From Candidatus Eremiobacteraceae bacterium (GTDB lineage: Bacteria; Vulcanimicrobiota; Vulcanimicrobiia; Eremiobacterales; Eremiobacteraceae): a stretch of DNA of 64,000 nt. Positions 2,965 through 14,488 of this stretch are shown here, piece after piece. Made by a program: the position numbers and the translations under genes. The notes beneath the pieces are model-generated. The model made no database searches, was not told the origin of the DNA, and worked only from the letters and a program-made list of their open reading frames with translations. The DNA lies in the NCBI GenBank assembly GCA_035710745.1, contig DASTCX010000025.1:124001-188000 (forward strand). The letters run 5' to 3'. Within the stretch, counting starts at the first letter, position 1; each line of letters begins with the position of its first letter.

Positions 2965-4293
2965 CTATCCAGAGCTGAGTTGAGCGAGCGTTTGTTGCGC
3001 CTGGACCGTTTGGAATGGGTTGAAGCGCGGATTGATCGCTAAGGCAAGCTCGAGGCGCTTTCGGGCTTCAACTCGATAGCGGCAGTGGAGCGCGATGATG
3101 CCGGCATGGTATTGCAGCTTGGCATCCTCCGTGCCGAGGCGAACCGCGCGCTCCGAATGCGCTCGCGCTTCCTCCCATTTGCCGGCGGCTGCAAGCGTCC
3201 AGGCGAGCGTGTCTTCCGCGTAGATGTCGTCGCGGCGCGCGAGGTCGCGGCGCGCTATCGCCACGGCGTCATCGGCACGAAGCCCGTGGTCGGCGTAGAA
3301 CATCGCGATGAGCCGGTCGTTCATGCCCTGCGCGTTGCCGATGCGCTCGATCGCATAGATGAGATCGAGCGTTTGCGCAGCATCGCCACGCCTGCCGAGC
3401 GCGAGCTGCGCATCGTATTCATAGCCGAGCACTTCGGGCAGCGGATAGACTTCCGCGCCTTTCGTCGCGAACGCGAGCGCATTCGTCCAGTCGCCTTTCG
3501 CCCAGTACGCCTTGGCGAGCCCATCGTAGCCGTGCCAGTAGCCCGGGAAGATCGAGAGCGATTCCTTATAGCGCGAGATAGCCGCCTGCGTATCGCCGGC
3601 TGCGAATGCGAGCTCTCCTTGACGCCAATGCGACCAGGCTCGCGTCTCGGCGGGATTGTCGACGACCTCATCCATCCGGCGTTGCACACCATCGATGATC
3701 GTGCGCGCGGACGAGAGGTGGCCGGTCAGTTCGTCGTAGCGGGCGAGCGCGATATCCCAATTCGGATCGTCGCTGCTCGGACGTGACGTCAGCGCGTCCT
3801 TCGCAGCTGAATAATCGCCGATTTCCATGTCGATGTTGGCGACCGTCGCGCGCGCCGTGAAGCTGGACGGGACGATACGCGACGCCTCTTTCGCATAGAC
3901 GAGCGCGGGCCGCATTTGATGGAAAGCGGTCAGCGCCGAGGCCATCGCCATGTCGGCGTTGATGTTGTAGCGCGGCTGGAGCGCGAGCGAGTGCTTCGCC
4001 TCGTTTTCGGCTCGGAGCAGATCGCCGACGTCCGCGCGTTCGCGATAGCGCTGGAGGTACTGTCCAGCGAGCATCGTCGCGATGATCTGGTCGCGCGAGT
4101 TGCGCTTCGTATCCGCTTCGTACGTCGCGACGAGCGCGTCGCGGTTCGCGTAGTCGGCGATGACCGGCGCGGCGGTCCAAGCCGGCGCCGGTACCACGTC
4201 GGGGGTGGATGCGCTAGCGCGCATGAACGCCGGCCATGCGACGAGCGCGGCGACGGCGATCGCCGCGACAGACCAGATGACCCGGGCGTTCAT
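2965..4293 (-). CDS. Tetratricopeptide repeat protein with N-terminal membrane anchor/signal
   Basis: A 442-residue protein starting at the ATG complementary to 4291-4293, preceded by a good AGGAAGAGG ribosome site; longer readings upstream are shadow. Residues 1-27 (VIWSVAAIAVAALVAWPAF core) form a signal or membrane anchor. The rest is helical TPR-type repeats, with A..Y...G....A signatures such as GDTQAAISRYKESLSIFP, KGDWTNALAFATKGAEVYP and GKWEEARAHSERAVRLG. It probably acts as an extracytoplasmic scaffold. It is the last gene of the DUF4331/metal-transporter set, 14 bp after the DUF4331 lipoprotein, which suggests it works with those proteins. Confidence 0.85.
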   Translation of the reverse strand: MNARVIWSVAAIAVAALVAWPAFMRASASTPDVVPAPAWTAAPVIADYANRDALVATYEADTKRNSRDQIIATMLAGQYLQRYRERADVGDLLRAENEAKHSLALQPRYNINADMAMASALTAFHQMRPALVYAKEASRIVPSSFTARATVANIDMEIGDYSAAKDALTSRPSSDDPNWDIALARYDELTGHLSSARTIIDGVQRRMDEVVDNPAETRAWSHWRQGELAFAAGDTQAAISRYKESLSIFPGYWHGYDGLAKAYWAKGDWTNALAFATKGAEVYPLPEVLGYEYDAQLALGRRGDAAQTLDLIYAIERIGNAQGMNDRLIAMFYADHGLRADDAVAIARRDLARRDDIYAEDTLAWTLAAAGKWEEARAHSERAVRLGTEDAKLQYHAGIIALHCRYRVEARKRLELALAINPRFNPFQTVQAQQTLAQLSSG

Positions 4294-4307
4294 GCGTGCC
4301 TCTTCCT

Positions 4308-4916
4308 TTAGTATGGGGTGTTGACGTAGGGGAAGGTCGCGCTGTAGGCTTGCGCCGTTCCGACGTTGTCGGTCGTCAGGCACGGCGACTCGTGGTGGTC
4401 GTCGGGTACGACGCCGAGCGCGGCGAGTGTGTTGCCGAAGATCGCCCCGAGCGAGATGTCTATGACGTCGTCGTTGAGCCACCGGCCGCCGAACGTGTTT
4501 CCGGTGGCGCCGCCCGTCTCGACGCCGAGATACGCGCCGCATGGCGTGTTCGGCGTGCCGCAACCCGCGACGGTCTTGCTCAGATCCGCCTGCATCTCGT
4601 CGGGGGTGAGGATCGAGGCGAGCGTCGTCGAGGTCGTCGTGTCGCGTCCTGCGTCGTTCTCCATGAACGTCACGATCGAGTCGTGGAGCAGGTTGTCTTG
4701 CGTCGGTGCCGAGCGGTTCGACTGGTCGTGGTTAGAGAAGTTCTCGAACGCCTCTTTGACGGCCGGTCGCGACAGACGTTCGATCTGGACGTACGTGGAC
4801 TTGTGCCCGGCCGCCGGCAGCGAAGACGACGAGGTCGTGCAGCCTGCCGCGCCGATCGCGAGGAGCGCGCCGAGCGCCGCTGCGCGGAGAGTGATCGATC
4901 CGTTATGCATCTTCAT
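4308..4916 (-). CDS. DUF4331 C-terminal-half lipoprotein
   Basis: A 202-residue lipoprotein with signal LRAAALGALLAIGAAGC (lipobox LAIGAAGC). The mature part, from YVQIERLSRPAVKEAFENF to the end (TFPYVNTPY), matches only the C-terminal half of the complete DUF4331 protein encoded at 8156-9358 (WTQIERLGRPAVKEAFEAY ... TFPYLNAPY). Shared blocks are AYLGVETGGATG, FGGR.LNDD.IDISLGAIFGNT and the terminal FPY.N.PY. The N-terminal half is a separate gene only 6 bp upstream. The DUF4331 family has no established function to my knowledge. The two parts probably form one domain pair outside the membrane. Confidence 0.85.
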   Translation of the reverse strand: MKMHNGSITLRAAALGALLAIGAAGCTTSSSSLPAAGHKSTYVQIERLSRPAVKEAFENFSNHDQSNRSAPTQDNLLHDSIVTFMENDAGRDTTTSTTLASILTPDEMQADLSKTVAGCGTPNTPCGAYLGVETGGATGNTFGGRWLNDDVIDISLGAIFGNTLAALGVVPDDHHESPCLTTDNVGTAQAYSATFPYVNTPY

Positions 4917-4922
4917 ATCCTC

Positions 4923-5684
4923 CTAGTTGCCGCTCGTCGTGCTCGTCGTCGCCCAGACGCCGATGTGGCCGCTGCCGAGCATCGACTTCGGGACTTCGAC
5001 GACGATGGCGATGACGTTGAACTGGTTCGAAGAGAGGAAGTCCTGCGACGCCGTCGTCGCGCAGCCGTGCGGATTGCCCGGCGCGAAGCCTTGGAATCCG
5101 ATGCCCGGATTCGGCGGTCCAGGATTCGGTTGGTTCTGATAGTCGCGATCGGGCAGGATCTGGAAGAACCGCGCGAGATCGAAGAAGAACGGGTCCTTCG
5201 CGTCACCCGCGAACACTTTGACGCCGTTCGAGAGCGGCGTGCCGGTGCGATCGTTGAACGTCACGGTCCCGACCTTGGTGACGAGCTTCGATGTCGTGCC
5301 GGTCAGCACCGGAGCCGACGGCCCGTAGACCTCGATCGACTGACCCGTACCCGAGTGCTTCGCCTTGAGCTGCAGCACCTGGTCCTCGATGCCGTCGCCG
5401 TTCGTGTCGATCTTGAGCTGATAGAGCACGGCCGGATCGAGCGCATCGGCGCCGAGGTTCGCGTGCGAGATGAGCGGGAAGACGTCCATCTGAAGCACGA
5501 CATTGCTCGAGTTGTCCGGCGCCTGATAGACGAAGACGTCGGTGATGTCGGCTCCCGGGCGGTTGACGACGGTCATCGAATCCTGATGATCGGAGCCTGC
5601 CGCCGGATGAGCCAGATAGATGAAGACCGCGCCGGACAGAGCGATGATGGTCGCCGCAACGCCGGCAAGACGCGCTGGTCTCAT
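4923..5684 (-). CDS. DUF4331 N-terminal-half protein, exported
   Basis: A 253-residue protein starting at ATG 5682-5684 behind a strong AAGGAGGAAA ribosome site. The signal segment is LAGVAATIIALSGAVFIYLA, then GSDHQDSMTVVNRPGADITDVFVY, matching the GSDHLDSPTT.ARPGADITDVYAF start of the complete homologue at 8156-9358. It continues in parallel (DPFFFDLA.FF.I.PDR; DFLSSN.FNV) and stops at GVWATTSTTSGN. That is precisely where the full-length protein carries on (NLWATTSTSSNGG) into the half encoded by the next gene. So a DUF4331 protein is divided at its inter-domain linker into two separately exported polypeptides. Confidence 0.87.
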   Translation of the reverse strand: MRPARLAGVAATIIALSGAVFIYLAHPAAGSDHQDSMTVVNRPGADITDVFVYQAPDNSSNVVLQMDVFPLISHANLGADALDPAVLYQLKIDTNGDGIEDQVLQLKAKHSGTGQSIEVYGPSAPVLTGTTSKLVTKVGTVTFNDRTGTPLSNGVKVFAGDAKDPFFFDLARFFQILPDRDYQNQPNPGPPNPGIGFQGFAPGNPHGCATTASQDFLSSNQFNVIAIVVEVPKSMLGSGHIGVWATTSTTSGN

Positions 5685-5712
5685 TTGGGTTTCCTCCTTG
5701 TGCCGGACGCCG

Positions 5713-6540
5713 CTACGCGACGGCCGTCGGGTGAGTAGCCGCGCTCGCAACCGGTGTCGAACGCACGCTAGCGTACGTCCAGACGAAGACGGCGAGCAAC
5801 GAAGAGACGAGAATGCCGCTCACGGCGATGTCGGGCACCGGCGATCGCCAGCCGAGCGTTTGCGCCAGCTCGTAGCCGCCGACCAAGAGCGCGAGCCCCG
5901 TGACCGCCACGATCCAGACGCGAGTCGCGCGAACGGTCTCTAGAGCCGGTCGTGCGCACAGTTTGTGTACGAGCATGCTGTCAAGCGTGTCCGTGACGGC
6001 CATGCCGAGCGAGAAGATGACTCCGATGAGCGCGGCGATGATGATGCCGCCGCCGGCGGAGAACGCGAGCGCGTACGTCGCGATCTGGCTCGACGTGTCG
6101 AAGCCGAGGCCGAAGAGCAAACCGACTGGGATGGCGGCAAGCGGACTCGTCGCCGCGCGAAGGGCGCGCGGGATGAGCGCCGACTTGACGCCTGCGGGAG
6201 CCGTCGCGCCGATCTGCAGTTGGCGCAGGTTGAAAGCGGCGATCAGGAAGAGCGTCACGATGCTGACCCACGTCCCGGCCGTCTCGATGAGAGCACCATG
6301 GATGGCGATCTTGCTGCCGAGCAATCCGGCGAGCATCGCGATCGCGAGCACCATGATCGAGTGGCCGCCCGCGAACAGCGTGCCTGCGAAGCGGCTCCAC
6401 TTCGATCGCGCGCCGATCGCGTTACGCGTCAGGTTGTCGATGGCAGCGAGGTGGTCGGGATCGGCGCCGTGACGCAGCCCGAGGGCGAAGACCGTGAACG
6501 CGCTCGTCGCAAAGCCGGCCGTGAGAAGAGTCGGCGTCAT
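5713..6540 (-). CDS. NiCoT-type nickel/cobalt permease (HoxN/NixA family)
   Basis: A 275-residue integral membrane protein. The NiCoT signature H-x4-D-H is present as RHGADPDHLAAIDN (H24, D29, H30) in the first helix pair. The second signature appears as LFGLGFDTSSQIA. Hydrophobicity suggests seven or eight helices. NiCoT permeases import Ni2+ and/or Co2+ for metalloenzymes such as urease, hydrogenase or B12 enzymes, none of which is in this window. The start at 6538-6540 overlaps the upstream NicO stop (ATGA), so the two are translationally coupled. Which metal is carried is not decided by the motif. Confidence 0.85.
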   Translation of the reverse strand: MTPTLLTAGFATSAFTVFALGLRHGADPDHLAAIDNLTRNAIGARSKWSRFAGTLFAGGHSIMVLAIAMLAGLLGSKIAIHGALIETAGTWVSIVTLFLIAAFNLRQLQIGATAPAGVKSALIPRALRAATSPLAAIPVGLLFGLGFDTSSQIATYALAFSAGGGIIIAALIGVIFSLGMAVTDTLDSMLVHKLCARPALETVRATRVWIVAVTGLALLVGGYELAQTLGWRSPVPDIAVSGILVSSLLAVFVWTYASVRSTPVASAATHPTAVA

Positions 6541-8072
6541 GAAGCAGCTCCTTGTCGATGCGAGCGCGCGTGCGCATGCGAGTGGCCCGGCGCTAGCGCG
6601 AACGTCGCGACTCCGGCGAGCGCGAGCAGCGTCACGACGACCGGTGATGCTTCGATGAGCCCGGCTTGCGCGCTCTGGCCGAGCATGACCGCGCCGATGA
6701 TGGCGATGACGCAAGCGGAGACGAGCGGCGCAAATGCGGCGGCTTTGTCGAAAAGCGGTCTGCGCGAGATCCACGCCGCGCCGCGGACGAGCGCGATGCC
6801 GAGCCCGGTGAGGACCGCGGCCAGACCGATCGAGAACGCGACGACGACCGCGACGCCGTAGCCGATCTCGTGAAGCGCAAGCGCGGCGAGCATGACGACG
6901 AGCGCCGCCGGACACGGCGCGATATTTCCAGTCATCGCCGCGAGCATCACACCGCGGAACGATAGCGGCGCGTCGCCGCTCGCGCCGAGCGAATGATCGT
7001 GCGAATGATCGTGGCTGTGATGGTGATGATCGTCGTGATCATGACCGTGAGCGACGGCGCGCCGCGCTCGGACGTAACGCGCGAGACTCGACGCCCCAAG
7101 ACTCGCGACGACGAGCCCTGACGCGAACGTGATCCACGGATAGATCGCCTCGGGAACGATCCAGCGCGCCGCGAACAGAAGCGCGACGCCCAGCAGCAGC
7201 ACGCCGGCGGTGTGCGCGATCGTCAGGCCGGTCGCGAGCAGCAGCGCTTGCTTCGGCGTGGCACGCGCGCCGACGAGCGAGACCGCGAGCAGCGTCTTGC
7301 CGTGACCGGGCTCGAGCGCGTGCAAAGCGCCGAGCCCGATCGCCGCGAGGAGGGTCAAGAGTACGACGAGCGGGCTCGACGCGCCGCGTGCGAGCATGTC
7401 GGAGAGCGCGTTGGAGCGGAATTGCGACGGCTGATTCGACGGAAACGTCAGCGCGGTCGAGCTCGCGCCGGCAGTCACGCGCTCGACGCCGCCGGTGAAA
7501 TCGATGGCGACCGACGTCAGATCGCGCGGCGAGCCGAGCTGCGCGCTCGGATAGTGGCGTAACTCGTCCGTGGGCTCGGTCGCAGGCGCGACGACGACGT
7601 CCTTCCAGCCGATCCGGTCCGGAAATGAATCGTCGCTGATCGTGATGCGTGTCGGCGGCGTCGCGATCCGTGCGTGGAAATCTTCGACCCAATAGAGCGT
7701 CGGCAACCCGCCTGCCCCTGGCCGTGTGCTGACGCTTGGTTCTTGCGCCGATAGCGCGAGACGCCGGCCATCGGCGTCGACGTCGAGCGACGGCTCGATG
7801 ATGCCGATCTCATCGTGCGCCCAAGCGCGCAGCTGCGCGGCGTCCATCGATCCGTTCGATGTGCGCGCCCGCATCGTCTGGAATGTCGGGATCTCCGCCA
7901 TGTCGAGGATGTAGCGCAGATGCAGCTCGTTCGAACGGGCGTCGACCTTGACGAGATGGTTGATCGTGAAGTTGCCGAGCGGATGCGCGCTTGCGGAAGC
8001 CGCGTTGGCGGCGATCAGCGCGCCGACGCATGCGACCAGCATCCCCGTCATCCAAGCCGACCGATATCTCAC
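6537..8072 (-). CDS. NicO/RcnA-like nickel/cobalt transporter with exported N-domain and His-rich loop
   Basis: A 511-residue protein from GTG 8070-8072 with a GGAGA ribosome site. Residues 1-29 are a signal peptide, then a periplasmic domain of about 200 residues beginning HPLGNFTINHLVKV. From residue 235 come six or so membrane helices with the NicO signatures HALEPGHGK (251-259) and GNIAPCPAALVVML (382-395). A cytoplasmic-type loop at 342-360 holds 11 histidines (HGHDHDDHHHHSHDHSHDH), and the C-terminus carries HSHAHARSH. Such loops bind Ni2+, Co2+ or Zn2+. RcnA-type members export Ni/Co; others import. The direction here is unknown. Confidence 0.85.
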   Translation of the reverse strand: MRYRSAWMTGMLVACVGALIAANAASASAHPLGNFTINHLVKVDARSNELHLRYILDMAEIPTFQTMRARTSNGSMDAAQLRAWAHDEIGIIEPSLDVDADGRRLALSAQEPSVSTRPGAGGLPTLYWVEDFHARIATPPTRITISDDSFPDRIGWKDVVVAPATEPTDELRHYPSAQLGSPRDLTSVAIDFTGGVERVTAGASSTALTFPSNQPSQFRSNALSDMLARGASSPLVVLLTLLAAIGLGALHALEPGHGKTLLAVSLVGARATPKQALLLATGLTIAHTAGVLLLGVALLFAARWIVPEAIYPWITFASGLVVASLGASSLARYVRARRAVAHGHDHDDHHHHSHDHSHDHSLGASGDAPLSFRGVMLAAMTGNIAPCPAALVVMLAALALHEIGYGVAVVVAFSIGLAAVLTGLGIALVRGAAWISRRPLFDKAAAFAPLVSACVIAIIGAVMLGQSAQAGLIEASPVVVTLLALAGVATFALAPGHSHAHARSHRQGAAS

Positions 8073-8155
8073 GCTTTCGTCTCCAAACAGAATAGGAATC
8101 GATGGTGGCGGCCGGAGGCATACGCAGCATCCGGCCGCCGGTGGGCATGCGCCGT

Positions 8156-9358
8156 CTAGTAGGGCGCGTTGAGGTACGGGAACGTCTTGCCGTAGGTCTG
8201 ATGCGGTCCCACGTGGTCGCTCTCGAGCGCCGGCGACTCTTTGCCATCGTCGGGTGCGAGTTTGAGCGCGGGGATCGTATTGCCGAAGATCGCTCCGAGC
8301 GAGATGTCGATGATGTCGTCGTTCAGACCGCGGCCGCCGAACTTGCTGCCGGTCGCGCCGCCGGTCTCCACGCCGAGATACGCGGCGGGAGCGCCGGTCT
8401 GCGACAGATCAGCCGAGATCTCGTCCGGGATGAGCACCGCCTTCAAGACATTGGCGATGGCGGGCGAGCGTCCGGCGACGGTCGTCGTGAATGTGTAGAT
8501 GTCGTTTGGAAGAAGCGGATCGTCGATCGGCGTACTTCGGTTCGTGCGATCGTGACTGTCGTACGCTTCGAACGCTTCCTTGACCGCGGGTCGTCCGAGC
8601 CGCTCGATCTGCGTCCACGGACCGCCGTTCGAGCTCGTGCTTGTCGTCGCCCATAGATTGATCTTGCCGGGCGAACCGCCGTCGGGCGCGAGCATCGTGC
8701 GCGGCAGCTCGACGACGAGCGACAGCACGTTGAACTTGTTCGACGACAAGAAGTCGACACCGGGATTGTTGAAGCCGGTCGCGGTGGGCGCGGGCGCCTT
8801 GGCGCCCGGCGCGTGGCCGGCGCGATCGGGGATGATCTTGAAGAACTGCGCGAGATCGAAGAAGAACGGGTCCTTGCGCGGTCCGGCGAAGATCTTCATG
8901 CCGTCGTCGAGCGTCGCAGGCTTATCGTAGGCGATGCTACCGCTCTTCGTGACCCACATCGAAGTCGTGCCGGTCTGCGACGGCTTCGCCGGACCGTAGA
9001 CGTCGATCTTCTGGTCGGCGCCCATACCTTCGGCCTTGAACTGGATGACCTGATCCTCGACGTGATCGCCCGTGTTGTCGATCTTCAACTGGTACATGAC
9101 GCCGGGATCGAAGAACGTCGAAGGACCCTGACCGGCGGGGATGACGGGATGCACGTCCATGACGAGCACGACGTTCGAATCGTTGTCTGGAGCTGGAAAT
9201 GCGTAGACGTCGGTGATGTCCGCACCTGGGCGAGCAGCCGTCGTCGGGGAATCGAGATGATCGGACCCGCGCGACGCGTGCGCCCCGTACAGGGTCAACG
9301 CGCCCACGAGAAGTGCGACCGCCGCCGCTGCGGCGACGCCCATGAGTCGCTGCGTCAA
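8156..9358 (-). CDS. DUF4331 protein, full length, exported
   Basis: A 400-residue protein. The start is the TTG complementary to 9356-9358, nine bases after a GGAGG site; ATG 9341-9343 is a weaker alternative. Signal segment VAAAAAVALLVGALTLYGA, then GSDHLDSPTTAARPGADITD. It contains both halves that are separate genes at 4308-5684. I know no biochemical function for DUF4331; the many Asp/Asn and GADITD / NDDIIDIS motifs look like a repeated beta scaffold that could bind metal, which is inference. It is first in the operon, 83 bp ahead of the NicO gene and divergent from the sigma factor. Confidence 0.87.
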   Translation of the reverse strand: MTQRLMGVAAAAAVALLVGALTLYGAHASRGSDHLDSPTTAARPGADITDVYAFPAPDNDSNVVLVMDVHPVIPAGQGPSTFFDPGVMYQLKIDNTGDHVEDQVIQFKAEGMGADQKIDVYGPAKPSQTGTTSMWVTKSGSIAYDKPATLDDGMKIFAGPRKDPFFFDLAQFFKIIPDRAGHAPGAKAPAPTATGFNNPGVDFLSSNKFNVLSLVVELPRTMLAPDGGSPGKINLWATTSTSSNGGPWTQIERLGRPAVKEAFEAYDSHDRTNRSTPIDDPLLPNDIYTFTTTVAGRSPAIANVLKAVLIPDEISADLSQTGAPAAYLGVETGGATGSKFGGRGLNDDIIDISLGAIFGNTIPALKLAPDDGKESPALESDHVGPHQTYGKTFPYLNAPY

Positions 9359-9577
9359 GTTCGTGTGCCTCCGTTGGTTGGCGGCGATTTTGCGTACGGT
9401 CGCCGCCGGTGATCGAAAAGCCGGCGATTCATGGGTGCAACGAGCGATGGTGCTTACCGGATGAGTCTTGCGAGGGCCGGATCACAAGACCACGACGCGG
9501 TGATACGAGCGGCGGTCCCACGCGTTAGAGCGGTAGGACCACGACTATGACGATGACGAGGGAGGACGAAGCGCCCG
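9359..9577. promoter_or_regulatory. Divergent intergenic region between DUF4331 operon and ECF sigma gene
   Basis: 219 bp without a gene. It must hold the promoters for both the minus-strand metal/DUF4331 operon and the plus-strand sigma/anti-sigma pair. Visible structure: an inverted repeat GTCTTG (9465-9470) ... CAAGAC (9485-9490), and similar GGACCACGAC / CAAGACCACGAC strings around 9483-9495 and 9535-9545. I could not recognise an ECF -35/-10 pair with confidence. Confidence 0.4.
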
Positions 9578-10216
9578 ATGCTCGCCTGGCCCGTGCCGTG
9601 CACGTGGGAGGTCATGTCGAAGTTCGCGCCGCGACGGCGCGAGCAAGGCCTCGATTTTTGCGAGCGCGAATGGGCGGCGCACATGCAGGACGACGTGCTC
9701 ATGCGGCGCGTGACGGCCAGCGATCACGACGCGTTCGCGGCGCTATATGACCGGCACGCGGCGCTCGTCTACGGTATCGCGCGGCGGATGCTCTCGGATA
9801 CGGCGCAGGCGGAAGACGTCGCGCAGTCGGTCTTCCTCCAGTTGTGGGTGCGCCCCGAGCTCTACCGCGGCGGCAATCTCGCCGCGTGGCTCGCACGAGT
9901 CGCTCGCAACGCGTGCATAGATATCTTACGCAGTTCGGCCGTGAGGCTGCGCGAGCCCGAGCTTCCTGCCGACGTCGAGGCTGATTCGTCGGTCGACGAA
10001 GAGGTCTTCGCAGGTTTGCGCGCGGAGGCGCTCACCGCAGCGCTCGACAGCTTGCCAACGGAACAGCGCACCGCGATCGAGCAGGCGTATTTCTCCGGCC
10101 TCTCCTATCGAGAGGTCGCGGAGCGGTCGGGCGAGCCGCTCGGAACGGTGAAGAGCCGGATCCGCATGGGCCTCAAGCGCTTGTGGGAGACATTGCGAGA
10201 GAAGGTGCCGTCGTGA
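9578..10216 (+). CDS. ECF-type RNA polymerase sigma factor
   Basis: Up to 212 residues. Region 2 is seen at HDAFAALYDRHAALVYGIARRMLSD followed by AEDVAQSVFLQLW. Region 4 is seen at ALDSLPTEQRTAIEQAYFSGLSYREVAER and GTVKSRIRMGLKRLWETL, the SigK/ECF-type HTH. The start is uncertain: ATG 9578, 9614 (GGGAGG only two bases upstream) and 9683 are all in frame, and conserved sequence begins only after residue 40. Its stop overlaps the anti-sigma start (GTGA). Being divergent from the DUF4331/metal operon, it is the obvious candidate to transcribe that operon. Confidence 0.92.
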   Translation: MLAWPVPCTWEVMSKFAPRRREQGLDFCEREWAAHMQDDVLMRRVTASDHDAFAALYDRHAALVYGIARRMLSDTAQAEDVAQSVFLQLWVRPELYRGGNLAAWLARVARNACIDILRSSAVRLREPELPADVEADSSVDEEVFAGLRAEALTAALDSLPTEQRTAIEQAYFSGLSYREVAERSGEPLGTVKSRIRMGLKRLWETLREKVPS

Positions 10217-10866
10217 TCCGCGGCCACGATGAGTCCATGCTCGAGCTCGCCGCGCTTCGCGCGATCGGCGCGCTTGAGCACGACGAAGCGGCGATCATCG
10301 ACCGTCATCTCGCCGAGTGCGAGCAGTGCCGGTCCGAGTACGCGCGCTCGAGAGCGGCAGGTGCCGCACTCGCGTTCTCGACGGCGACGCCGCCGCCGCC
10401 CGAACTTCGGCATCGAGTGCTCAGTCGCGCCGCGAGAATCACGCGCGTGCGCCGCTGGTATCAGCAGACGTCGTGGCGCGCAGCGGCAGCCGCGGCGGTC
10501 GTCGTCATCGCGGCCGGTACGTGGTTCGCGACGCACAAGCAACAGCCCGAACAGCGATGGGCCGCGCACTGCACCGCGGCTGCGGCGGCCGATTGCGGCG
10601 ATCTCGTCGCGAGCGGCGGCGTGCTCCGGCTCGACGCGCGCGGGCTTGCGACGCCGCCCTCCGGCAAGGTCTACCAGGCGTGGGTCATCCCGCCGAAGCA
10701 AAACCCGATTCCCGAGCCGACGTTCTCGGTCGATTCGAGCGGCGCCGGGACCGTCGCCATAGATGCCGCGCCCGCGAAGGGCGACATCGTCGCGGTGACG
10801 CTCGAACCTGCCGGCGGCTCCAAGCAGCCGACCTCGAAGCCGCTCATCGTCGCGACGATCCAGTGA
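10213..10866 (+). CDS. Anti-sigma factor, zinc-finger + RskA-like domain
   Basis: 217 residues from GTG 10213, coupled to the sigma gene by a GTGA overlap; an upstream in-frame ATG at 10183 would intrude into sigma. The N-terminus has the anti-sigma zinc-binding pattern HLAECEQCRSEY (H-x3-C-x2-C). One membrane helix follows (AAAAAAVVVIAAGTWF). The extracytoplasmic C-domain carries the RskA hallmark GKVYQAWVIPP with ...TFSVDSSGAGTVAI. It should hold the sigma factor at the membrane and release it on an external signal; the domain faces the same compartment as the exported DUF4331 proteins. Confidence 0.92.
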   Translation: MIRGHDESMLELAALRAIGALEHDEAAIIDRHLAECEQCRSEYARSRAAGAALAFSTATPPPPELRHRVLSRAARITRVRRWYQQTSWRAAAAAAVVVIAAGTWFATHKQQPEQRWAAHCTAAAAADCGDLVASGGVLRLDARGLATPPSGKVYQAWVIPPKQNPIPEPTFSVDSSGAGTVAIDAAPAKGDIVAVTLEPAGGSKQPTSKPLIVATIQ

Positions 10867-10887: not shown

Positions 10888-10963
10888 GCCGAGCTGCGCT
10901 CGGCATACCACATGCTCGTATTAATGCGGAAGGGCCGCGGCGGTCGAGATGAATCTCGACCGC
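10888..10963. repeat. Composite type B + type A hairpin repeat
   Basis: A type B variant (10888-10904, GCCGAGC-TGC-GCTCGGC) is followed after 35 bp by a type A hairpin (10940-10963, arms GCGGTCGAGAT/ATCTCGACCGC, loop GA). The order B-spacer-A, with the shared string GGAAGGGCCGCGG before A, is the same as at 2888-2958. It sits between the convergent anti-sigma and ketosynthase genes and may terminate both transcripts. Confidence 0.8.
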
Positions 10964-10985
10964 TCCCTGAGACCGCCTACTACAT

Positions 10986-12218
10986 CTAGGCGGCGCGGAG
11001 GACGATCGCCGCGTTCAAGCCGCCGAACCCGAAGCTGTTCGACATGACGACGCGTTGCTTCAATGCCATCGGCGTCTCCGGCGAGTAGCGCAGATCGCAG
11101 CCGTCGCCCGGCGTCTCGAGGTTGATCGTCGGCGCGACGAGCGCGTCGCGGATCCCAAGCACGCACATCGCGATCTCGACCGCGCCGGTGGCGCCGAGCG
11201 CGTGGCCGGTCATCCCCTTCGTCCCCGATACGACGATCTTGTCGGCCGCAGCGCCGAGCGCGGCGCGGATCGCGCGGCTTTCGGTCGCGTCGTTGAGCGG
11301 CGTCGACGAACCGTGCGCGCTCACGTGATCGACCTCCGACGGGTCGACGTCGCCGTCGCGCAGCGCAAGCGTCATCGCGCGCGACGCCTCGCGGCCATCT
11401 TCGCGCGGCGCGACCATGCTTTGACCATCGTTCGTCAGCGCGTAGCCGACGATCTCGCCATACGGGGTAACGCCTCGCCGCACGACGTCTGCCTCGCATT
11501 CGAGCAATAACAGACCCGCGGCTTCCGCCATGACGAACCCGTCGCGGGCCGCGTCGAACGGGCGGCTTGCGGTCGCGGGATCGCCGTTGCGCGTCGACAT
11601 CGAGCGGATGACGTCGAACGCGTCGAAGATGAGCGGCGTCAGCGGTACCTCGACGCCGCCGGCGAGCGCCGTGCGGCACAGGCCGCTTCGAATCGCGCGG
11701 AACGCATCGCCGATCGCGACCGCGCCAGCCGCGCACGAATTCGAGTTGGAGATCGTCGGGCCGTGCAGCCCGAAGTGGATCGCGACGTTGCAGCACGCCG
11801 CCGCCGGGAAGACGCTCAAGGCGAGGATCGGGCTGATGGCCCTCGGACCCTTCTCGTAATAGCTCTTGAACTCGCCTTCGGCGAACGCCGCGCCGCCGAG
11901 CGCGCTGCCGATCCAAACGCCGAAGTCGCCGTCGTCGCCTTGCGGCGTGTAGTTCGCGTCGTCGAACGCCATCTGGGCCGCTGCGATCGCGAACTGGCTG
12001 TAGCGGTCGGTGCGCTGCGTCTCGCGGCGCGACAGCAACGCCGATGGATCGAAGTCGTCGACTTGCCCGGCGACTTGCGAGCGGAACAGCGATGCGTCGA
12101 AACGGTCGATCGCCCGCACACCACGGCGGCCGCCGAGCGTTCCACGCCACATCTCGTTCCTGCCCGATCCGATCGGCGTGATCGCGCCGATGCCCGTTAT
12201 GAAGACCCGATTAGCCAT
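10986..12218 (-). CDS. Beta-ketoacyl synthase, KAS II (FabF)-like
   Basis: 410 residues, the usual KAS II length. The thiolase-fold catalytic triad is intact: C162 in SNSCAAG, H302 in SAHGSSTPLND, H339 in KGMTGHALGATGA. Start VFITGIGAITPIG and end SNSFGFGGLNAAIVL are typical. It condenses malonyl-ACP with an acyl starter. Its place in a four-gene overlapping operon with a START-type cyclase, a flavoprotein and a methyltransferase suggests a dedicated polyketide-like or modified fatty-acid pathway rather than housekeeping FabF. No ACP or chain-length factor is seen nearby. Confidence 0.9.
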   Translation of the reverse strand: MANRVFITGIGAITPIGSGRNEMWRGTLGGRRGVRAIDRFDASLFRSQVAGQVDDFDPSALLSRRETQRTDRYSQFAIAAAQMAFDDANYTPQGDDGDFGVWIGSALGGAAFAEGEFKSYYEKGPRAISPILALSVFPAAACCNVAIHFGLHGPTISNSNSCAAGAVAIGDAFRAIRSGLCRTALAGGVEVPLTPLIFDAFDVIRSMSTRNGDPATASRPFDAARDGFVMAEAAGLLLLECEADVVRRGVTPYGEIVGYALTNDGQSMVAPREDGREASRAMTLALRDGDVDPSEVDHVSAHGSSTPLNDATESRAIRAALGAAADKIVVSGTKGMTGHALGATGAVEIAMCVLGIRDALVAPTINLETPGDGCDLRYSPETPMALKQRVVMSNSFGFGGLNAAIVLRAA

Positions 12219-12663
12219 TGCGCTCCTCCGCGAGCTGCTTCATGCGTGCGAGCGTCCGGCCCGCGATCGATTGGATGAAGAAATAGCCGACGATCCGGTG
12301 GCCGAACCAGCCGCGCAGCATCGGCCGCACGTGCTCGTCGAGATCGTGAGCGATCGTCACGCGCGTTCCGCCGGGGCAAGGCGCGAACGTCCACGCGACC
12401 GACATGCCTTTCGTCCACCCGGACAAGTGTTTGAATTCGATGCGCGGCGTCGACGGATCGAGCGTCTGCAGCGCGGTCCATCGCACCGGGATCCAATCTC
12501 GGCGCGCCGCCATCTCGACCTCGCGTTCACGCCCGTTCTCGCGAAGCACCTTCACCCAGCGGTAGTGCGGGAGTATCGCCGGCCACGCCGCCACGTCCTG
12601 TGCGAGCTCGTAGATCTTCTGCGCCGGCGCCGCGACGTCGACCGAGCGTTCGAGGTGCATCAT
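12211..12663 (-). CDS. SRPBCC/START-type cyclase-like protein
   Basis: 150 residues from ATG 12661-12663, overlapping the upstream flavoprotein stop by ATGA and the downstream ketosynthase start by 8 bp. Helix-grip pattern: HLERSVDVAAPAQKIYELAQDVAAWPAILPHYRWVKVL at the N-terminus, a central GTRVTIAHDLD strand and a long C-terminal helix IAGRTLARMKQLAE. Family members cyclise or aromatise polyketides or bind lipid/quinone ligands. Coupling to a ketosynthase supports a cyclase or ligand-carrier role; I cannot name catalytic residues. Confidence 0.8.
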   Translation of the reverse strand: MMHLERSVDVAAPAQKIYELAQDVAAWPAILPHYRWVKVLRENGREREVEMAARRDWIPVRWTALQTLDPSTPRIEFKHLSGWTKGMSVAWTFAPCPGGTRVTIAHDLDEHVRPMLRGWFGHRIVGYFFIQSIAGRTLARMKQLAEERNG

Positions 12664-13805
12664 GCGATGAGACCGATGAGCGCGCGCGGATTGAGCGCCG
12701 TCCGCGCCGGCACCGCGCCGGCGAGCGCCGCGAGCACCGATTCGGCGTGCCCGGGATCGCGGCGGATCGCTCGTTCGGCTCGATCGCGCAGCGGCCGGAT
12801 TCGGATGACTGCATCGACCGCCGCGGCGAGCATCGTCCGAGGCCGCACCGCGCTCGCTCGCGCGGCGGCGAAATCGCGCCCTATGGTCGAAGACCGCGCA
12901 CCGCGCAGAAACGCGTCTGCTGCAGTGACGACCGACGACGACGTCTCGAGCGCGATCGCCATGCCCTGACCGACGAACGGATCGAGCAGACCGGCCGCGT
13001 CGCCGACGAGCAGCACGCGATCGCGCGCGGCGACGTCGGCCGCATAGCGAAGCGGACCGACAGCGACGCGCCGCTCGAGCTTGTCTTCTTCGAAACGGCA
13101 TTTGCCTTTCGTCAATTCGACGACCGTCCGATCGGCATCGCTGCCGCGCCGCGCTTCCGGCATGACGAGCATCGAGTTCGCCTTGCCGTTGCCGAGCGGG
13201 TTTCGCGCATAGTAGCCTCCAGGACCGACGAACATCTCAAGCGCGTCTTCATCCTTTTGTCCGGTCAGATGGCCGCCGACGGCCCACCGACCGCCGCGCC
13301 GGTGACGCCGCGCCATGCCTGCTCGCTGCGCGACCGTCGAAAACGCGCCGTCGGCGCCGACGAGAACGCGACACTCGATCGTCCGGTTCGCGCCGTCGCG
13401 ATCGCGATACGAAACGACGAGCCGGTCGCGCGATCCTTCGACGTCGAGGAACGCGCCGCCGATCGACGTCGCGCCTGCGCCGCAGGCCGCTTCGAGCAGG
13501 ATCTCGTCGAAACGGCTTCGTGGGATCGACAGCGCTCCGCGATCCGGCAAGCGCAGCCGCACGGGCTGCGTGCCAAAACCGGAGAGCGCGATAGTGCGCA
13601 GCGGAAATGCTTCTGCCGCCATCGCGTCGAGCAGGCCGAGCTCGGCGAGCGCGTTGCAGGCGCCGGGGCTCACATATTCGCCGCACACTTTCGTGCGCGG
13701 GAACTGCGCGCGCTCGAGAACGGTGACCTCGAAGCCGGCGCGGGCGAGACGCAGTGCCGACGACGAACCCGCGGGGCCGCCGCCGACGATGAGGACGTCG
13801 GTCAC
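12660..13805 (-). CDS. FAD-dependent oxidoreductase (geranylgeranyl-reductase / hydroxylase type)
   Basis: 381 residues. The FAD dinucleotide motif GGGPAGSSSA is at residues 8-17, an R-x-KVCGEYVSPG segment follows at about 36-48, and the second FAD motif is VLLVGDAAGLLDPFVGQGM. This is the group of flavin monooxygenases/reductases related to geranylgeranyl reductase. In biosynthetic operons they hydroxylate or reduce polyketide or isoprenoid intermediates. Its start overlaps the methyltransferase stop and its own stop overlaps the cyclase start. Confidence 0.87.
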   Translation of the reverse strand: MTDVLIVGGGPAGSSSALRLARAGFEVTVLERAQFPRTKVCGEYVSPGACNALAELGLLDAMAAEAFPLRTIALSGFGTQPVRLRLPDRGALSIPRSRFDEILLEAACGAGATSIGGAFLDVEGSRDRLVVSYRDRDGANRTIECRVLVGADGAFSTVAQRAGMARRHRRGGRWAVGGHLTGQKDEDALEMFVGPGGYYARNPLGNGKANSMLVMPEARRGSDADRTVVELTKGKCRFEEDKLERRVAVGPLRYAADVAARDRVLLVGDAAGLLDPFVGQGMAIALETSSSVVTAADAFLRGARSSTIGRDFAAARASAVRPRTMLAAAVDAVIRIRPLRDRAERAIRRDPGHAESVLAALAGAVPARTALNPRALIGLIA

Positions 13806-14488
13806 GCCGCGCCTCCGACGAGCGCCATGCGGTAGCCGGGATACTTGCGGACATCGACTCGTGTCCAGCCCGCGTTTCGAGCGAGCGCCGATGCCTCTTG
13901 CGGTGTGTACGCGCGCAGCACCGACATCGGTCCATCCGCGAGCGTGAACTTATTGCGCGTGAACAGCGGGAACGCGTACTTCGCGAACGCGTACGCGAGC
14001 ATGCTGCGCCTAAGATCGTTGACGATGACGGTCTTCGCGACGCGCGCGAGCTCGCGAAGGACGGCGACGGCGGCGTCGCCGTCGAAGTGATGGAATGCGA
14101 GCACGATCGTCGCAAGGTCGAAACTCTTATCGGCGAAAGGCAACGAGGTAGCGTCCGCTTGTTGGAGACGGATATCGTCTCGACCCGACACGCGTCCGGC
14201 TGCGATGGCGAGCACTTTCGGCGACCGGTCGACCGCGACGCACGTCGCCGCGACGCCGCGGCTGCGGAGATGGTCGAGCATGAAGGCAGGCAAGTCCGCG
14301 CCGCCGGTCGCGACGTCGATGATGGTACGCGGAGGAGGGTCGATGCGGTCGATCTCGAGGCGCAGGCTGCGCCGCCCGCCGAGCAGCCTATTGACCCGAG
14401 CGAGGTCGTGCAAGCTCCCGCGCCAGAGGGCGTCGTCGCCGCTCGTCGTGTCGTCGTCCATCAATTCGCGGGCGATCAGGCGCGGCAT
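13802..14488 (-). CDS. Class I SAM-dependent methyltransferase
   Basis: 228 residues. SAM-binding motif I IIDVATGGADLPAF, acidic motif II VAVDRSP, then DATSLPFADKSFDLATIVLAFHHF. The N-terminus (ARELMDDDT...LHDLARVNRLLGG) is characteristic, as I recall, of methyltransferases that accompany type III polyketide synthase operons. It is the first gene of the four-gene operon and likely methylates the product of the ketosynthase/cyclase/flavoprotein. The actual substrate cannot be read from the sequence. Confidence 0.87.
   Translation of the reverse strand: MPRLIARELMDDDTTSGDDALWRGSLHDLARVNRLLGGRRSLRLEIDRIDPPPRTIIDVATGGADLPAFMLDHLRSRGVAATCVAVDRSPKVLAIAAGRVSGRDDIRLQQADATSLPFADKSFDLATIVLAFHHFDGDAAVAVLRELARVAKTVIVNDLRRSMLAYAFAKYAFPLFTRNKFTLADGPMSVLRAYTPQEASALARNAGWTRVDVRKYPGYRMALVGGAA

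Follow-up and report, generated by a model that had tools for sequence, protein, structure and literature searches.

The subject of this study is an eight-gene locus at positions 2965-10866 of a 64,000-nucleotide stretch of DNA from a Candidatus Eremiobacteraceae bacterium (the whole of that stretch is here called the window), in which three DUF4331 frames, two nickel/cobalt-type permeases (NicO and NiCoT) and a tetratricopeptide repeat (TPR) protein form a minus-strand operon that faces an extracytoplasmic function (ECF) sigma factor and an RskA-like anti-sigma factor. Judged from sequence, this locus is probably an envelope system for handling transition metals (nickel/cobalt, possibly copper) under the SigK-like ECF/RskA pair. 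The cassette is real and recurrent, and appears to be undescribed in the literature searched, namely the open-licence main texts of 5.39 million papers, in which no mention of DUF4331 was found; its parts resemble known kinds, and the combination and the hypothesis for DUF4331 are new. We infer that the secreted DUF4331 proteins, one periplasmic and the second a two-chain form with a lipid-anchored C-half, would bind metal through a Ser-X-His site at the mature N-terminus that is of the amino-terminal copper- and nickel-binding (ATCUN) type, and would hand it, perhaps through the TPR protein as an adaptor, to the His1 domain of NicO and to the NiCoT permease. What comes directly from sequences and the tools applied to them, as described below, is which genes are present and how they recur, together with the predicted mature N-termini, the match in domain fold, the fission of a gene and the promoter-like motif.

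Gene content and layout

All eight genes that a sequence-only reading of this DNA had listed were confirmed, with exact coordinates, the same order and the same minus-strand intergenic gaps of 83, -4, 28, 6 and 14 bp from DUF4331-A to the TPR gene; the ECF gene diverges from the operon, and its reading frame overlaps that of the anti-sigma gene by 34 bp. Every named family passes its curated Pfam cut-off (PF14224, PF03824, TPR, sigma-70 regions 2 and 4, RskA_C), with PF14224 assigned to the three DUF4331 frames at 194.8, 103.3 and 63.1 bits against a cut-off of 27, and PF03824 to both transporters. What that reading had overlooked were the anglerase-like domain of NicO, the affinity of its permease with the exporter RcnA, and the recurrent fission of DUF4331. 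The host genome assembly (G000) comprises 2.97 Mb in 41 contigs and, going by the named records closest to its proteins, is placed in Candidatus Eremiobacterota (Vulcanimicrobiota). The features of the locus are:

8156-9358, minus strand: DUF4331-A, single chain, secreted, TTG start (PF14224, E = 4e-57; AlphaFold2 (AF2) model, predicted TM-score (pTM) 0.83)
9257-9265, minus strand: Ser32-Asp33-His34 of DUF4331-A, predicted mature N-terminus NH2-Ser-Asp-His (alignment and cleavage rule)
6537-8072, minus strand: NicO, secreted N-domain fused to an RcnA-like permease (PF03824; RcnA match)
7407-7985, minus strand: anglerase-like N-domain of NicO, predicted mature residue 1 = His (HPLGNFTINH; cleavage site, Foldseek)
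6990-7049, minus strand: His-rich loop of the NicO permease, HGHDHDDHHHHSHDHSHDHS, aligning with the RcnA His-rich loop
5713-6540, minus strand: NiCoT-type permease with the GLRHGADPDHLAAID signature (PF03824, E = 1.8e-22)
4923-5684, minus strand: DUF4331-B N-half, secreted (PF14224)
5586-5594, minus strand: predicted mature N-terminus SDHQDS of the DUF4331-B N-half (sequence)
4308-4916, minus strand: DUF4331-B C-half with its own lipoprotein signal, lipobox Cys26 (PF14224, profile positions 248-421)
2965-4293, minus strand: TPR protein with an N-terminal signal peptide or anchor (TPR Pfam match; N-termini of homologues)
9438-9463, minus strand: promoter-like motif CATCCG-N14-TCGTTG, 105 bp upstream of DUF4331-A
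9578-10216, plus strand: ECF sigma factor, true start possibly near 9683 (sigma-70 regions 2 and 4, Pfam; SigK-like NCBIfam match)
10183-10866, plus strand: RskA-like anti-sigma factor with H-x3-C-x2-C (HLAECEQC; RskA_C, E = 1e-17; NF052375 above its cut-off)

No phage match was found, and no Rfam match to a cobalamin or NiCo riboswitch was obtained in the window or in nine related loci. Beside the anti-sigma gene, at 10921-14488 on the minus strand, lie ketosynthase-like, SRPBCC/cyclase-like, FAD oxidoreductase-like and methyltransferase-like reading frames, perhaps a small polyketide cluster; neighbours of about 410 and about 149 amino acids from this region recur in three other loci (L041, L055, L056).

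Recurrence across genomes and phyla

Of 61 relatives, 31 carry DUF4331; all 14 control genomes lack it. About 25 of 61 mapped loci carry a same-strand module reading NicO (about 510 amino acids), NiCoT (about 270 amino acids), DUF4331 N-half, C-half and TPR, sometimes complete, sometimes lacking one part or having it elsewhere; one genus has, instead of this NiCoT, a canonical HoxN-type permease of about 350 amino acids, encoded downstream of the TPR gene. Single-chain DUF4331 often stands with TPR alone, or is solitary, and in the host genome another DUF4331, which has no signal peptide, neighbours a canonical NiCoT. When 84,980 species were scanned, 79 loci were obtained by DUF4331 similarity alone, and in these 40 of 67 DUF4331 units have NicO nearby on the same strand and 54 have TPR; the two sets share some Eremiobacterota contigs and are not independent there.

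The cassette of DUF4331, TPR and NicO is present in Eremiobacterota (the host phylum), Cyanobacteriota, where all loci with sufficient contig read DUF4331-TPR-NicO, and Actinomycetota; versions in which partners are exchanged or absent occur in Armatimonadota, Gemmatimonadota, Bacteroidota and Pseudomonadota. Annotated plasmids provide further examples: DUF4331-TPR-'nickel transporter'-fasciclin in Streptomyces, another cassette in Nostoc, DUF4331-x-TPR-HupE/UreJ_2 in Comamonadaceae and DUF4331-HupE in Rhizobium. Because the arrangement recurs across phyla, it is far beyond chance. The sequence-only reading had made itself depend on DUF4331 recurring beside such transporters in other lineages, and DUF4331 does stand beside NicO or HupE and TPR in Eremiobacterota, Cyanobacteriota, Actinomycetota, Pseudomonadota and Armatimonadota.

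Several records call for separate comment. The cassettes of L048 (G006:C2) and L068 (G027:C39) agree on the mapped genes in genomes assigned to different families; possibly the two metagenome-assembled genomes have a contig in common or were contaminated during binning. In L067 and L094 NicO is down to a frame of 84-108 amino acids between the ECF and TPR genes, apparently a decayed cassette. Two contigs labelled Rhodospirillales (L100, L102) carry Eremiobacterota-like DUF4331, with L100 falling among Eremiobacterota in the tree, and are probably misnamed or mis-binned.

The predicted mature N-terminus of DUF4331

An alignment of 18 DUF4331 sequences has just 13 invariant columns, and these include Ser32 and His34. 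Among 80 non-redundant forms with a signal peptide, the -3/-1 cleavage rule is satisfied directly before Ser-X-His in 79, as compared with 1 when the site is moved one residue earlier, 33 one later and 3 two later; strict A/V-x-A sites fall immediately before Ser-X-His in 36 of the 80 and at any other offset in at most 3. Forms without a signal peptide start Met-Ser-X-His, from which methionine aminopeptidase would remove the Met and leave a Ser-X-His N-terminus. The ATCUN pattern is a free NH2-X-X-His, and the mature DUF4331 N-termini, as predicted, have this form. DUF4331 may bind a metal of the Cu/Ni type at an ATCUN-type mature N-terminus. Such a site would be destroyed in tagged or untrimmed constructs, and a native start is essential in binding assays.

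The N-domain of NicO and the permeases

NicO N-termini read as an A-x-A-type site followed by HP(L/M)GNF, placing a predicted mature His1 straight after the signal peptide in 76 of 76 readable cases. When the AF2 model of this N-domain (pTM 0.81) was compared with known structures, a single confident neighbour came out at E < 0.001, namely 9gce, the Cu-bound Ang-1 domain of a HupE/UreJ-2 protein (Foldseek E = 4.3e-5, probability 1.00, TM-score only 0.45-0.50). Next in rank were ZrgA and PA4063, which bind zinc; no match to chains of the Protein Data Bank was detectable by sequence. The anglerases Ang-1 and Ang-2 are likewise secreted domains on metal permeases, and Ang-1 binds Cu and Ni through its mature His1, with capture for uptake proposed (PMC12537917). 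The likeness extends to the predicted His1 and to the fold, but the permease differs, since the N-domain is here fused to a NicO/RcnA-type permease (PF03824) and there to HupE/UreJ-2 (PF13795). The taxa differ as well: Ang-1 is mainly found in Pseudomonadota and Ang-2 in Actinomycetota, whereas the NicO form occurs in Eremiobacterota, Cyanobacteriota, Actinomycetota and Armatimonadota; DUF4331 and TPR partners are unreported in that work, which mentions neither DUF4331 nor NicO (PMC12537917). The HupE/UreJ_2 permease of the Comamonadaceae DUF4331-TPR cassette also has a predicted mature His1, and thus links the DUF4331 cassette with the anglerase lines.

The membrane part of NicO aligns with E. 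coli RcnA at 28% identity over 247 amino acids (E = 2e-27), His-rich loop included, and its best NCBIfam model is a nickel/cobalt efflux transporter; with the RcnA subfamily model PRK10019 it scores 116 bits, below the cut-off of 195. Like the RcnA/RcnB efflux system, the locus combines this membrane domain with an accessory exported protein, but it differs in the extra N-domain of NicO, in having NiCoT in the operon, in an ECF/RskA pair in place of RcnR, and in that DUF4331 and RcnB are unrelated by family. The NiCoT protein shares PF03824 and the H..D.DH signature with HoxN/NixA-type permeases, and this signature is intact in 35 of 35 homologues; unlike them, it is only about 275 amino acids long, lies below the TIGR00802 cut-off (80.6 against 333 bits) and is embedded in a cassette.

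Fission of DUF4331-B

The two halves of DUF4331-B in the window are in the same frame with TAG and 6 bp between them, and one TAG recurs in many homologues, as would be expected of a single gene that is broken by sequencing error or recoded by TAG read-through. The wider comparison makes this explanation very improbable indeed: 25 split pairs are cut at one point, after 'WATTST..G', in relative frames 0, 1 and 2, and end the N-half with either TAG or TAA; read-through, recoding and frameshift were accordingly rejected. The stop codons are fused to the Shine-Dalgarno sequence (TAGGAGG in the TAG case), the C-half carries a recognisable lipobox in 33 of 36, and in a tree of 93 sequences, with four split/fused labels corrected by hand, the two forms interconvert at least five times; in Armatimonadota all DUF4331 are split. 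On sequence grounds the split is a real and recurrent gene fission, in which the C-half acquired a lipoprotein signal that the parent chain did not supply. Because the cut falls, in the AF2 model of DUF4331-A, in a short loop between strands 232-241 and 248-254, we infer that the halves should re-associate.

Proposed regulation by the ECF/RskA pair

From aligned ECF-cassette intergenic regions of six loci we derived by eye the motif [C/A]ATCCG-N14-NCGTT[A/G]. With spacing 14 this promoter-like motif is present in 13 of the 88 upstream regions of cassette genes, 7 of the 13 sites being outside the six discovery loci; each of the other spacings between 8 and 21 gives 0-1. Genome-wide in G006, five of the six matches to CATCCG-N14-NCGTTA are at NicO/DUF4331 genes, among them two unlinked DUF4331 loci, and on a Gemmatimonadota contig a split DUF4331 directly follows ECF-RskA. 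Matches to sigma-70 promoters were at chance level. SigK is among the best NCBIfam matches of the sigma factor, although PRK09646 scores 138.6 bits against a cut-off of 226, and the anti-sigma factor has both the RskA_C domain and the zinc-binding H-x3-C-x2-C. The fixed-spacing motif supports a putative SigK-like ECF/RskA regulon. Comparison with SigK-RskA of M. tuberculosis, which controls MPT83/MPT70 (PMC7509140), finds similar SigK-like scores, an RskA_C anti-sigma factor, a small regulon of exported proteins and, in Streptomyces, a fasciclin gene after DUF4331-TPR-NicO, but here the regulon would be DUF4331/NicO, and no fasciclin target was found in the Eremiobacterota searched.

A second motif target, in five genomes, is a conserved secreted family of about 212 amino acids (MHGRFGGPVYNGPPAL) with no Pfam family (L173, L181, L185, L195, L196), a member of which follows an RskA gene in G046:C47. 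This additional family is not fasciclin, and the idea that fasciclin belongs to the regulon in Eremiobacterota was rejected. The host genome has two copies (G000:C13:138132 and C31:25849), upstream of which the full motif was not found.

Metal, direction of transport and alternative explanations

The sequence-only reading had proposed that exported DUF4331 proteins bind metal and work with the transporters and a TPR scaffold as one envelope system switched by the sigma factor. This proposal is partly supported: the system as a whole gains from the recurrence of the cassette, the motif and the N-terminus, metal binding gains indirectly from the predicted ATCUN-type N-terminus, and control of the operon is made more plausible by a fixed-spacing motif at linked and unlinked targets. 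Several observations weigh against our reading of the locus. Eight DUF4331 proteins, mostly second-copy Eremiobacterota paralogues, lack the His; DUF4331 has no known structure by sequence or fold and no confident structural neighbour; the N-terminus of the DUF4331-A model is at a predicted local distance difference test score below 50; the membrane part of NicO most resembles the exporter RcnA, an awkward fit with uptake; and in the host genome we found no NiFe hydrogenase and, for urease, a single weak, stop-containing match that is not convincing. Hence, supply of nickel to those enzymes is not the purpose of the cassette there, and it was rejected as a universal purpose, 14 other cassette genomes also having neither enzyme. 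In six paralogues (L110, L114, L152, L158, L060, L079) Ser-X-His is changed to Phe-Asp/Asn-aliphatic, and such proteins may work beside the canonical copy as partners that do not bind.

The NiCoT and HupE partners point to uptake and the RcnA affinity points to export, and we would modestly favour uptake. In an efflux or detoxification system, NicO would export Ni/Co like RcnA, DUF4331 would buffer periplasmic metal, as E. coli RcnB, itself periplasmic, does, and the sigma factor would sense envelope metal stress. The RcnA alignment, the best NCBIfam model and ECF/anti-sigma control all agree with such a role, which we nevertheless consider somewhat unlikely, given an uptake-class NiCoT (HoxN/HupN/NixA) in the same operon, HupE types as the permease partners elsewhere, and the sub-threshold score with the RcnA subfamily. 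That copper is the substrate, and the names NicO and NiCoT misleading, seems rather unlikely. ATCUN and mono-histidine-brace sites both favour Cu(II), the host lacks NiFe hydrogenase or a convincing urease, and Ang-1 prefers Cu2+ over Ni2+ (PMC12537917), but the H..D.DH signature of NiCoT is intact throughout, and cassette presence tracks NiFe hydrogenase (9/27 against 1/34 in 61 genomes; Fisher p = 0.003, kinship ignored). Less likely again is a role for DUF4331 at the surface that has nothing to do with metal, such as carbohydrate binding or a structural function, the protein merely sharing a regulon with metal genes. Its fold has a weak similarity to CBM9-like beta-sandwiches (E = 4e-3, probability 0.57), and the single-chain form often has TPR alone or no partner; this explanation has to contend with a Ser and a His that stay invariant at the mature N-terminus whichever of two maturation routes produces it, and with the repeated linkage to NicO, NiCoT and HupE.

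Significance

As a tentative proposal, which we regard as possible rather than probable, the DUF4331 proteins may be ATCUN-type carriers whose site is made by processing, through signal peptidase outside and methionine aminopeptidase inside, and which would form, with His1-capped NicO, an N-terminus-to-N-terminus metal relay that spans phyla. DUF4331, a large family of unknown function, thereby gains a specific and cheaply testable hypothesis, that of metal binding dependent on a native N-terminus. The anglerase idea of 2025 would be extended to RcnA-type permeases and to further phyla, and both it and DUF4331 would be tied to an ECF/RskA regulon.

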